This document shows positions 59,371 through 64,000 of a stretch of DNA of 64,000 nucleotides, one piece after another; position 1 is the first letter of the stretch; the number at the start of each line of letters is the position of its first letter. The position numbers and the translations under genes are program-made. The notes under the pieces were generated by a model. It had not been told where the DNA came from. It saw only the letters and a list, made by a program, of their open reading frames with translations, and did no database searches. This stretch comes from Arenicella chitinivorans (lineage in GTDB: Bacteria; Pseudomonadota; Gammaproteobacteria; Arenicellales; Arenicellaceae): positions 434,001 through 498,000 of the forward strand of contig NZ_BMXA01000001.1 of the NCBI RefSeq assembly GCF_014651515.1, in the 5' to 3' direction.

Positions 59371-60114
59371 ATGACTATTAATAGGCCTATGCAAAAATTT
59401 TCAATTATTTATGAGGCTGCGGTCAAGCGTAAAGGTGGCGAACAGGAATTGCGTAAACTGTTGGTACCGGTACGGTCGCCTGACTACCTTCGACAGGTGA
59501 GCGATGATCGTTATTTAGCCCAGTTAACCAGGTGTGTGTTTAATGCTGGGTTTCATTGGCGAGTGATTTCATCTAAGTGGGACGGATTCGAAAAAGCATT
59601 TCACGGTTTCGATTTAGGTCATTTACTGACCAAGTCGCCAGAAGAGTGGGAGGCGTATCTGGAAGATACCCGTATCATCCGAAATTGGCAGAAAATTCAA
59701 ACCGTGTATGAAAATGCGTTGATGTTTGAGGATATCGCGGCCGAACACGGGAGTTTTGCGGCTTTTTTTGCCGATTGGCCGATCGACGACCAAGTTGGTT
59801 TGATGCGCTATTTACACAAGCATGGTGCGCGCCTTGGCGGCAAAACAGCGCAGTGGTTTATTCGATTCAGTGGCAAGGACGGGTTTGTACTGAGTGATGA
59901 TGTGGTTACCGCGTTGATCGCCAACGGGGTCGAGGTGAACAACCCAGTAACTAGCCAGCGTGACTTGAAATCAGTTCAGACCGCGTTTAACAACTGGCAA
60001 AAGGAGTCGGGTTTGCCCTATACCCATATCAGCAAGGTCTTGAGCTATTCGGTGGGCGATAATGTGCCGGTGGATGTATTGACCGGCTATCAAGGTTCGC
60101 AGACACTGACTTAA
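59371..60114 (+). CDS. DNA-3-methyladenine glycosylase I-like protein
   Basis: 247 residues from ATG 59371 (ATG 59389 is an alternative). HhH-GPD-superfamily protein like the Tag group: DDRYLAQLTRCVFNAGFHWR, the catalytic-region KWDGFEKAFHGFDL, and QTVYENALMFEDIA. The N-terminal Cys and the late His/Cys zinc ligands of E. coli Tag are not seen, and the protein is longer than Tag (about 190 residues), so it belongs to the Tag-like group lacking the zinc snap. Excision of 3-methyladenine is inferred. It is divergent from the ABC-F gene; the carboxylase gene is convergent. Confidence 0.72.
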   Translation: MTINRPMQKFSIIYEAAVKRKGGEQELRKLLVPVRSPDYLRQVSDDRYLAQLTRCVFNAGFHWRVISSKWDGFEKAFHGFDLGHLLTKSPEEWEAYLEDTRIIRNWQKIQTVYENALMFEDIAAEHGSFAAFFADWPIDDQVGLMRYLHKHGARLGGKTAQWFIRFSGKDGFVLSDDVVTALIANGVEVNNPVTSQRDLKSVQTAFNNWQKESGLPYTHISKVLSYSVGDNVPVDVLTGYQGSQTLT

Positions 60115-60130: not shown

Positions 60131-60162
60131 AAAAAAGGGCGCTAACCGATTGGTCAACGCCC
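60131..60162 (-). terminator. Rho-independent terminator of the carboxylase gene
   Basis: On the minus strand GGGCG (60162-60158) pairs with CGCCC (60141-60137) around a part-paired loop, followed by TTTTTT (60136-60131). It lies 28 bases after the carboxylase stop at 60190. Confidence 0.8.
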
Positions 60163-60189
60163 TGATTGAGTACTTTGTGAACTGCGTTG

Positions 60190-63100
60190 TTACTTGGTTG
60201 GTTTGACAACAAATAACAGGTCACCGGCATTCACTTGTGCCCCATTGGCCTGATTCACTCGCACCACCTCGTAGCTTTTGTCGGCAGTGAAGATTTCGCC
60301 TGAGCCTGGTACGCTCGACAATGAGATATGCGTAAACAGCTTCATCGCCTCGACCTGACATAAAGTCTGGCTCAAGTTGACCTTGTCTCCGACCTCAACG
60401 AACTCGGGTTCACTTGGTGTTGGTGTTGAGTAATAAATACCCGTCATTGGCGAAATCACCTTGATTTCATCGGTGCCAGCGATCTTCAGACTGCTGACAT
60501 CACTGTCGGCCTTATCGACACCGGTGTAGGCCATTTCTTGCACGATTTGCTTTTTATCCAGCGTATCAAGGAAGGCTGGTAGATAACCGGTATCATAATC
60601 GCCTTTAACAAAAGTGGGATCCTTGAGGATGCGCTTTAAAAGTGAAATGTTGGTGCACACGCCTTTGATGACCGTTTGCTCCAGTGCTTCAATCAGCTTC
60701 TTGATGGCATCTTTGCGGTTTTTTCCGTGTACCACAAGCTGAGCAATCATGCTGTCATAAAATGGCGAAATGGTCTTGCCTTCGGAGACTGATGCGATGA
60801 CTTCGATATGATCGCCGGATGGGAACTTACACTCGGTGACTAGGCCTGGTGTTGGCAGAAAGTCGATCACGCCATCGGAATCCAAACGCGCTTTTTCGGC
60901 GGTGATACGTGCCTCAATTGAGAAACCTTTGTTGCCAATCTTTAAATTTTTGATTGAAGCGCCTTCGGCAATTTCAAATTGTTTGGCTACGATCGGCACA
61001 CCCGATGTCCACTCGGTGACTGGGTGCTCAACCTGAAGACGGGTGTTCATTTCCATAAAATAAATGGTGTTGGCCTTCAGGTCGTAAATGAACTCGACCG
61101 TACCAGCGCCAAAATAATCTACGGCATCCGCTAGATTGGCCGCGCACTCATAGGCTTTCTGCTCCAGATCCTTCGGTAACATGGTTGAGCCGGACTCTTC
61201 CAATACTTTCTGGTTGTTACGCTGGACCGTGCAGTCACGCAGGCCGAGTACCTGCGTACACCCATGCGCGTCACGCAGGATTTGCACTTCGATATGACGC
61301 ATCGACTCGACGAACTTCTCTAAATACAAGTCGCCATTGCCAAACGCGCTGCGTGCTTCACTGTAGACGTTATTGAATGCGTTTTTGATGTCTGCGGCAC
61401 TGCGTACAACCTTAATGCCTTTACCACCACCGCCGTGAACCGCCTTGAGCAGGACGGGGTAGCCAATATCTTCTGCTACTTTGGCCGTCGCTTCAGCACT
61501 GGTCAAAATACCGTGCGAACCAGGGACCACGGGTACGTTGTTGGCCATCGCCGTGCTGATTGCATTCGACTTGTTGCCCATGGTGTCCATGCTGCTGGCT
61601 TTGGGTCCGATAAAGTTCAGCCCATTGGCTCGACACAAGCGCGCAAAGCCCGCATTTTCCGATAAGAAACCGATGCCTGGGTGCAATGAGTCCGCATCGC
61701 GCGCACGGGCAATGGTAACCACCGACAAACCATTTAGGTAGCTCTCTCCGGGTGTTTGGCCGCCAAGACAAACGACTTCGTCACGGTCAGTCAACATGTC
61801 GCACGCAGCCGAATCCATGTCTGGATCGGATTGTACGAGCAGCACCTGATAGCCCTGGGCTTGTGCCACGCGGATCAGCTTGACCGCGGTACAGCCTCGT
61901 GCGTGAATCAGGACTTTCTCGATCTTACCCATCTGGTCAATAGCGCGATGGATTTTGACCTCTGGCTCACGTCGACGCATGCTGGCAGCGCCAGATATGA
62001 CCTGATTGACCACCTCATTAATGGTCTCAGTGGGTAACTCAATAGTGGGGTCAACTTCACGTAATTTTTCATCCAACCCGTCGGCAAACGGGTGTTTCAC
62101 AAGCCCCTGCATTGCACCAGGCTTGCTGGCTAGGTAGTTTGATGTGGTCGCCATCGACGGTAGGAAAGAAGGGACGACAACTCGGCCAGCAAATGGCATG
62201 TCGGTGCCACTAAGGTAGTAGGTGTGCACCAATGGGTGAGTGACAAAACTCGCTTGGGAACCACCGGTGCAGTCGCCGAAGCCGAACACCATGACGGGCA
62301 AGCCAGTATCGGCAATGAAATTGGTGATGCGGTCATTCACAATCGCCATCGAGAACAAGGAGCTTGGTCCTTCTTTTGTTTGCATGCCGCCGGATGACAC
62401 AAAACACACGACGGGCAGTCCGCGCTCAGCACAGTCGAGCAACAGCGAACACAACTTTTCGGCGCCGGCCATATCAAAGGCGCCAGCCTGAAACGCCACG
62501 TTAGAGATCAATGCACCGACTTCGCGAGTGTTGCCGTCGTCGTCTAACTTGAACTTGCCGATCCCGGTGATCACACCGCATGGTGTGACGTTATTGTTCA
62601 AAGCCTTCTCGATAGATTGACGAAAGCCCGGAAACGAGACCGGGTTGGCGGTCATTTTATTGGCGTTAGTTTCTTCAAAGTCGATAAAGAAACGTTGTTT
62701 GAACGCATCAACGGTGGTGGCCTTTTGCTTTTTATACGATGTCAGAACACGTTGGATTAGCAAATCTTGATACGCGATATTCAGCTGATTCCAGAAGTCT
62801 TTGCGTTTACCAATGCGCCACGGGTTGATCTGGCCGTTGTAGCTTTTGCCACTCATCTGTGCCTCGATAAAGCGCGGCACCAGGGTTTCAAAGAAATAGG
62901 TGATCAGCACCAGCAGTGAGTCTGACATGCGCGGGAAGTTTACACGCTTCCATTCCTCGACCGCCGACAGAAATTCGCCACGTTGATCGTACTTGACGAA
63001 ATGGCCGAGCCATTTAGCAAACTCGGACTTGATATCGCTGTCGACGACGCCATCGGCCATTGAGCCGGTCACGTTACTGGCCACTTCCTCTAGCGAGGAA

Positions 63101-64000
63101 TCTAGAATTTTGCGCAACGTTTTTTCGGATAAGGACTCGAAGGCTTTCGACTCCTCAGCGATTTCGCCAAAATTATCGACGATATTGTTGTACAGCGCGT
63201 CAAAGATCAGAATGTCGCGGAACTGTGTGTGCAGGATATCGCGAATGGTTGGCTCGTTGAGTGTGTCCAACAGTGTCAGTTCGGCTTCTGGTTTGGACAG
63301 ATAGTCGTCGCTTTCGTTGCTCAATTCGCTGAGGCGATTGTTCATTTCTACGAAATTAAACGCGGCGTCCGATTTCCAGCGATTGTACAAATACAAGCAC
63401 AGTACGAAGCAGTAATTCTTCTGGGCGCTGCGGTAATTGCTTTGCGGGTCGCCGAGAATCAGCGCAGTAATCTTGTTGCGGTCGGTATTCAGCTCGTCAC
63501 GCTTGCTTTTTAGGTGGGCCCAAGCTTTCGCAAGTTCATCGTTATAAACCAGCTTTTCCGGGTCCGATAGCCACTGTTCAAACGCTTTCTCGCGCATTTG
63601 GCGCAGGCGGTCCTTGAGGTCGCCCTTGGGTATTTCTTTGTCTGCTAATCGGCCGTAAGTCTCGATGGTCGCAGAATGGATTCGGCAGCGCAGTGACAAA
63701 GAACGCAGATACATCATGGCGTGTGAGTACACACTAGGATACTCCGTGAGTTCGCCATACAGTTCAAATTGCGCTGCTTTTTGTAACTCAGCGAAACTGT
63801 CACGGTGCAACTTTTCAGTCCGCACATTGTCTAGGTAATCGGTGCCAACAATGGGGTTTTCCAATACTTCACGCTTGGCGTCTGCTTCGATTTCCTTAAC
63901 GCCTGTGAAAATCGCAGCGACCAGATTGGACGTATCGTCGTTGTTGTCACTTGGGTCCCAGTCAATAACGCCATCGATGGCGCCGCTGCGGTACAGTTCC
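60190..64000 (-). CDS. Single-chain biotin-dependent acyl-CoA carboxylase (CT-BC-BCCP order), N-terminus beyond window
   Basis: 1269 residues are visible and the frame is still open at the window edge. Numbering from the edge: a segment ELYRSGAIDGVIDW at 1-14 looks like the end of an AccA-type carboxyltransferase half; 50-465 is helical and unrecognised; about 470-690 is an AccD-like carboxyltransferase domain with FVSSGGMQTKEGPSS, lacking the N-terminal zinc finger; about 690-1150 is a biotin carboxylase with LKAVHGGGGKGIKVV and MEMNTRLQVEHPVTEW; about 1175-1269 is a biotin carrier domain with the biotin Lys 1220 in QVEAMKLFTHI. The order is the reverse of eukaryotic ACC (BC-BCCP-CT). It carries out ATP- and bicarbonate-dependent acyl-CoA carboxylation; whether on acetyl-CoA or another substrate is unknown. 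TTG 63864 is not the start. Confidence 0.88.
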   Translation of the reverse strand, partial: ELYRSGAIDGVIDWDPSDNNDDTSNLVAAIFTGVKEIEADAKREVLENPIVGTDYLDNVRTEKLHRDSFAELQKAAQFELYGELTEYPSVYSHAMMYLRSLSLRCRIHSATIETYGRLADKEIPKGDLKDRLRQMREKAFEQWLSDPEKLVYNDELAKAWAHLKSKRDELNTDRNKITALILGDPQSNYRSAQKNYCFVLCLYLYNRWKSDAAFNFVEMNNRLSELSNESDDYLSKPEAELTLLDTLNEPTIRDILHTQFRDILIFDALYNNIVDNFGEIAEESKAFESLSEKTLRKILDSSLEEVASNVTGSMADGVVDSDIKSEFAKWLGHFVKYDQRGEFLSAVEEWKRVNFPRMSDSLLVLITYFFETLVPRFIEAQMSGKSYNGQINPWRIGKRKDFWNQLNIAYQDLLIQRVLTSYKKQKATTVDAFKQRFFIDFEETNANKMTANPVSFPGFRQSIEKALNNNVTPCGVITGIGKFKLDDDGNTREVGALISNVAFQAGAFDMAGAEKLCSLLLDCAERGLPVVCFVSSGGMQTKEGPSSLFSMAIVNDRITNFIADTGLPVMVFGFGDCTGGSQASFVTHPLVHTYYLSGTDMPFAGRVVVPSFLPSMATTSNYLASKPGAMQGLVKHPFADGLDEKLREVDPTIELPTETINEVVNQVISGAASMRRREPEVKIHRAIDQMGKIEKVLIHARGCTAVKLIRVAQAQGYQVLLVQSDPDMDSAACDMLTDRDEVVCLGGQTPGESYLNGLSVVTIARARDADSLHPGIGFLSENAGFARLCRANGLNFIGPKASSMDTMGNKSNAISTAMANNVPVVPGSHGILTSAEATAKVAEDIGYPVLLKAVHGGGGKGIKVVRSAADIKNAFNNVYSEARSAFGNGDLYLEKFVESMRHIEVQILRDAHGCTQVLGLRDCTVQRNNQKVLEESGSTMLPKDLEQKAYECAANLADAVDYFGAGTVEFIYDLKANTIYFMEMNTRLQVEHPVTEWTSGVPIVAKQFEIAEGASIKNLKIGNKGFSIEARITAEKARLDSDGVIDFLPTPGLVTECKFPSGDHIEVIASVSEGKTISPFYDSMIAQLVVHGKNRKDAIKKLIEALEQTVIKGVCTNISLLKRILKDPTFVKGDYDTGYLPAFLDTLDKKQIVQEMAYTGVDKADSDVSSLKIAGTDEIKVISPMTGIYYSTPTPSEPEFVEVGDKVNLSQTLCQVEAMKLFTHISLSSVPGSGEIFTADKSYEVVRVNQANGAQVNAGDLLFVVKPTK

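Follow-up and report, generated by a model that had tools for sequence, protein, structure and literature searches.

What enzyme is encoded by the very long minus-strand gene that runs off the end of the analysed stretch of Arenicella chitinivorans DNA (64,000 nucleotides, G000:C1:434001-498000; the window), and is it new? A first-pass annotation had read it as a giant acyl-CoA carboxylase that unites carboxyltransferase (CT), biotin carboxylase (BC) and biotin carrier (BCCP) domains in one chain and represents a lineage of its own. We are confident, with a probability of about 94%, that the gene is an ortholog of accS (AccADCB) and encodes a single-chain biotin-dependent acetyl-CoA carboxylase (ACC) with the order CT-alpha, helical module, CT-beta, BC and BCCP, its activity being predicted. 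The gene is real and intact and belongs, as an ordinary member, to an enzyme family already described.

The reading frame is open without interruption from its stop codon (60190-60192) to the window edge. We used flanking DNA (490001-506000, L005) to complete the gene, which continues for 761 bases outside the window, up to a TTG codon at G000:C1:498761, and yields a protein of about 1,523 residues; the part in the window (60190..64000, minus strand) comprises residues 255 to 1523 and the stop codon. TTG was taken as the start because it is common to five of the seven close-kin genes whose starts were compared (the A. chitinivorans gene included) and is directly preceded by a GGTAA stretch in those five, and residue numbers are counted from it. 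Just past the stop codon lies a terminator-like hairpin with a 12-pair stem followed by a T run (60136..60163, minus strand), which is only suggestive since 13 such sites were found in the region against 6.7 expected. A promoter scan near the start gave three sites against 4.5 expected. A fusion or assembly artefact, or a decayed gene, has practically no probability left: of 434 confirmed stretches in the genome collection 80 were kept as loci, mostly from gammaproteobacteria and with Arenicella as the nearest relatives, and in 71 of the 80 loci fetched a long open frame can be aligned over the chain.

Pfam and NCBIfam matches establish the order of domains and bear out the CT-BC-BCCP arrangement seen in the window. 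The remnant at the window edge that had looked like a second CT half proved to be one when the gene was extended past 64000: an AccA-like domain was found there (PF03255, ACCA, residues 128-282, 87.6 bits; also NF041504). The whole CT-alpha half covers approximately residues 85-285 and lies mostly outside the window, which holds only its C-terminal end (63907..64000, minus strand). It is followed by the helical module (62632..63906, minus strand; about residues 286-710), a stretch of about 425 residues with no Pfam match above cut-off and predicted to be almost wholly helical, where the first-pass annotation had counted about 400 residues of no recognisable domain and had rightly placed them between the two CT halves. 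The AccD-like CT-beta half (61987..62631, minus strand; about residues 711-925) aligns to E. coli AccD. The Carboxyl_trans model (PF01039) matches the chain twice, once in each CT half; in the AccA-like half it covers residues 118-239 (46.6 bits when the genome was searched), and in the AccD-like half it reaches 19.6 bits alone, which, like the 34.3 bits of the AccD model TIGR00515, is below the cut-off. The BC domain (60568..61923, minus strand; residues 947-1398) consists of Biotin_carb_N (947-1058), the ATP-grasp domain CPSase_L_D2 (1064-1271) and Biotin_carb_C (1283-1394), with its catalytic residues kept; its scores with NF006367 (491 bits) and TIGR00514 (459 bits) lie below the cut-offs that these models set for stand-alone AccC. 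The chain ends with an AccB-type carrier domain (60202..60483, minus strand; residues 1427-1520), matched above cut-off by Biotin_lipoyl (PF00364, 1435-1518, 34.5 bits) and by TIGR00531 with 60.6 bits, below the cut-off for stand-alone AccB. The biotinyl lysine, K1474 in the motif EAMKL, aligns to K122 of E. coli AccB, and the place of its codon (60340..60342, minus strand) was checked.

Conservation was followed in an alignment of 77 rows, consisting of the A. chitinivorans protein, the 71 loci mentioned above and five proteins from further genomes; nine loci were left out, eight cut by contig ends and one with unknown bases. At least three rows are genes met twice, so the row counts are slightly inflated. 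Fourteen BC residues were compared at what we take to be their E. coli AccC numbers, and 13 of them are identical in the A. chitinivorans protein. Twelve of these do not vary in any of the 77 rows, and the thirteenth is V in 75 rows, with I in the two others. The deviating position, H236 of E. coli, is N in the A. chitinivorans protein and 72 other rows and K in four. The biotinyl lysine is present in 77 of 77 rows. The AccD zinc ribbon is missing: all four of its cysteines, at the positions that we assume for them, are lost across the 77 rows. The motifs SGG and TGG in CT-beta and SGGA in CT-alpha, presumably the oxyanion holes, are invariant in an alignment of 11 rows. From this residue conservation we infer that the A. 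chitinivorans protein would be biotinylated and active as an acetyl-CoA carboxylase.

A search of PDB sequences returned 9kkm/9w4a as the best match by far (1,643 bits, residues 13-1522 against 15-1515), both named 'Acetyl-CoA carboxylase multifunctional enzyme AccADCB'. This full-length match to a solved enzyme, together with the E-values of the main Pfam domains (1e-24 to 1e-60), excludes chance. According to its title, 9kkm (released 2025-11-19) is a cryo-EM structure of the acetyl-CoA carboxyltransferase holoenzyme dimer of Shewanella oneidensis, mutant E1238A; we found no paper on this structure itself in the open-licence literature. Its sequence is as long as AccS of S. oneidensis (SO_0840, 1517 aa), which, in passages of PMC4793157 (2016), is said to replace AccABCD homologs. 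The same passages list a stand-alone extra AccB, which means that the canonical replacement is incomplete in S. oneidensis. Passages of PMC11602165 (2024) describe accS as a multi-domain ACC with a domain order unlike the eukaryotic one, activated by the LysR regulator AccR, and biotinylated AccS as one of two biotinylated bands, near 170 kDa; there, E. coli accABCD restores growth of an S. oneidensis accR mutant, a strain with lowered AccS. A Shewanella relative that matches the 9kkm fragment at 98.5% shares 51% identity with the A. chitinivorans protein over 1,493 aligned residues, and 39% in the helical module. We therefore reject an undescribed new family, given the AccS passages of these two papers and the end-to-end match to 9kkm/9w4a. 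The novelty proposed at first is lost, since the helical region belongs to an already described single-chain carboxylase; of the separate gammaproteobacterial lineage, what stands is a distinct lineage of single-chain enzymes, with gammaproteobacteria supplying most of the 80 loci. The name accADCB also occurs in PMC9803151, where the passage concerned gives four genes within a list of gene names, taken by us as no fusion. Nothing linking Arenicella with acetyl-CoA carboxylase was found in the open-licence literature.

Does A. chitinivorans hold another ACC? Profile searches of its genome (4.03 Mb, 17 contigs, 99.62% complete) found no stand-alone accA, accB, accC or accD, a check that the first-pass annotation had suggested. 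PF01039 matches three genes, namely a member of an operon that we read as methylcrotonyl-CoA carboxylase (MCC), a BCCP-CT protein and the accS-type gene; PF03255 matches the same three, hence there is no stand-alone AccA. TIGR00515 gave nothing above cut-off, and no match to AccC models reached the cut-off. PF02785 finds two genes with BC, the accS-type gene and another next to the MCC-like operon. TIGR00531 likewise gave nothing above cut-off in this genome; its four weak matches are all long frames with the accS-type gene on top, and an extra Biotin_lipoyl match is weak and partial (23.6 bits, 198-residue frame). fabD is present. Because none of the four genes was found, the accS-type product is probably the sole ACC of this bacterium; with 17 contigs and 99.6% completeness their absence is strong, not absolute. 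The BCCP-CT protein (589 residues, G000:C2:199726-201495, L002:1495-3264, minus strand) begins with a biotin carrier domain that is joined to a complete carboxyltransferase, has no BC gene nearby, and its best NCBIfam match, mmdA, is far below cut-off. With only two PF02785 BC genes in the genome, it may borrow BC or be a transcarboxylase or decarboxylase.

The relation between AccS and the canonical enzyme extends to related genomes. Among 26 chosen genomes, accD was above cut-off in 1 of 15 with AccS (taken from the 21 of the class and order searches, six being omitted as less than 90% complete) versus 10 of 11 without AccS, the single AccS-less genome that lacks accD being only 78% complete. 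A further 39 genomes from the 80 loci, whose completeness is not given, hold accD above cut-off in seven cases. Combined, and with one genome counted once that is apparently in both sets (same match coordinates), accD is kept in 8 of 53 AccS genomes and no canonical accD was found in the other 45. Replacement of AccABCD is thus typical of AccS genomes, not defining, and the eight exceptions have a second candidate ACC besides AccS. In a set of 28 genomes, accC was above cut-off in all eight with accD and in one of 20 AccS genomes without accD, the latter a 476-residue frame right at the cut-off. In the genomes that keep accD, AccS could serve otherwise, and a fold search places propionyl-CoA and long-chain acyl-CoA carboxylases among the related CT folds; the A. 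chitinivorans protein might by the same token carboxylate another acyl-CoA (propionyl-, longer-chain, catabolic) instead of being the ACC of fatty-acid synthesis. We consider this improbable, however, as the CT halves separately resemble AccA and AccD, the carrier is AccB-like, no other recognisable ACC is present in the genome and the S. oneidensis ortholog acts as an ACC in passages of PMC11602165. The 'acyl-CoA' carboxylase of the first-pass annotation can be narrowed to a predicted acetyl-CoA carboxylase by family membership and by the lack of any other ACC found in the genome.

As an acetyl-CoA carboxylase, the protein would work as follows. The BC domain presumably carboxylates biotin on the C-terminal carrier, using ATP and bicarbonate. 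The carrier would then swing over to the carboxyltransferase site, at which its AccA-like and AccD-like halves are expected to bind carboxybiotin and acetyl-CoA, and malonyl-CoA would be made there for use by FabD. As for the helical module, its most likely role is to join the CT halves and to hold the dimer and the BC and CT parts in place.

This module is the least explained part of an enzyme already solved. Its best Pfam match, LepB_N, is below cut-off and was rejected, and kinship with any known domain was rejected by Pfam, fold and PDB profile searches. A model of the module built from 42 sequences (mean pLDDT 76.8) is nearly all helix, and its sole fold match at E < 0.001 is 9kkm (E 2.9e-19; next 0.27). 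A profile search of PDB sequences likewise gave 9kkm/9w4a as the only significant match (E 6e-181; next 0.048). With matches limited to these entries, the module is part of a known enzyme without a recognised PDB relative elsewhere, and we found its relatives only in AccS proteins. For the close relative at locus L055, a CT-helical-CT model superimposes on 9kkm (TM score 0.84, normalised by query length), and the CT halves of that model align to AccA and AccD structures. Conservation is lower in the module than in the catalytic parts (median identity 0.41 versus 0.57-0.64 in CT and BC). Its length falls into two classes, 417-436 residues (44 of the 77 rows, the A. chitinivorans protein included) and 519-552 residues (the other 33; L074, L082, L084, L086-L088, L121, L128 and similar loci), with no intermediate among the 77. 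Adaptable regulatory parts often behave in this way, and the module might thus be regulatory and bind a ligand or another protein instead of acting as a structural linker. We regard this as unlikely, as 24 of its residues are invariant in the 77 rows and eight of these fall within the block 643-658 close to CT-beta, which fits a structural interface, and no ligand-binding fold was recognised by the fold search. We infer a scaffold role instead.

How widely is this architecture distributed? Searches for the helical module found it in 6 of 369 genomes of the class, 19 of 109 of the order and 17 of 18 of the genus, the lone exception being the 78% complete genome. A quick tree built from 49 selected rows requires at least four changes of the accD label, and both systems are held by some Woeseiaceae, some Granulosicoccaceae and one Pseudomaricurvus. 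This suggests repeated displacement or transfer of ACC systems, on a quick tree with several long branches and with many of the genomes being bins. Three accS genes (L097, L115, L119) come from contigs whose genomes are labelled Planctomycetota, Verrucomicrobia and Desulfuromonadales, by transfer or mis-binning; canonical accD was not found in the L097 and L115 genomes and is present in that of L119. It is a tentative idea, to which we give somewhat less than even odds, that the helical module, a fold without relatives outside AccS, joined the CT halves into a complete, transferable one-gene ACC, which moved between lineages and coexisted with and then displaced the four-gene ACC more than once, in the genus Arenicella included. 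That the enzyme is more widespread, and that canonical ACC is present beside it in some genomes and missing from others, adds modestly to what is known of the family. In some bacteria, and well beyond Shewanella, a single protein instead of four carries out the committed step of fatty-acid synthesis, and lineages in which the two versions occur together could reveal how an essential enzyme comes to be replaced by another.

In A. chitinivorans the accS-type gene is followed by a convergent gene (59371-60114, 247 residues) with a partial match to methyladenine glycosylase (PF03352, residues 45-135 only), possibly a divergent glycosylase-like protein. Upstream lie a weakly VanZ-like gene (27.1 bits, Pfam cut-off 30.1) and a gene read by eye as recJ. 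No divergent LysR activator gene accR was found beside the A. chitinivorans gene or at Arenicella-type loci. In the 80 loci, 72 of which offer more than 1.2 kb upstream for this search, a divergent AccR-like gene of more than 60% identity is present in eight, all from Shewanella, Parashewanella or Motilimonas; we do not treat divergent accR as a defining part of the AccS enzyme. No AccR-like gene was seen at the Pseudomaricurvus locus L065, a genus named in the accR paper, and the species may differ. Three loci (L084, L098, L100) have a LysR-type gene just downstream of accS in the same direction, about 33% identical to Shewanella AccR, which fits the second regulator mentioned in passages of PMC11602165.

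Compared with known systems, the A. chitinivorans protein has a counterpart for each catalytic part of the four-subunit ACC (AccA, AccB, AccC, AccD), with AccA- and AccD-like halves and an AccB-type carrier, but forms one chain, lacks the AccD zinc ribbon and has the helical module in addition. The eukaryotic ACC likewise carries all parts in a single chain, and its CT halves come beta first, alpha second. A eukaryote-like architecture, BC-BCCP-CT (PMC3199775), was rejected, as the order found is alpha, module, beta, BC, BCCP, an arrangement absent from the passages concerned of that paper. The helical module gave no significant fold match to eukaryotic ACC. A bacterial single-chain biotin carboxylase with a CT of related fold is also seen in 5fif, which we take to be a long-chain acyl-CoA carboxylase, presumably with one continuous CT domain, a different domain order and different substrates. 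The closest system is AccS of S. oneidensis, which has a divergent accR beside its gene, unlike the A. chitinivorans gene, and shares with the A. chitinivorans protein the same domain order, the same helical module and homology from end to end, standing in for the canonical subunits.
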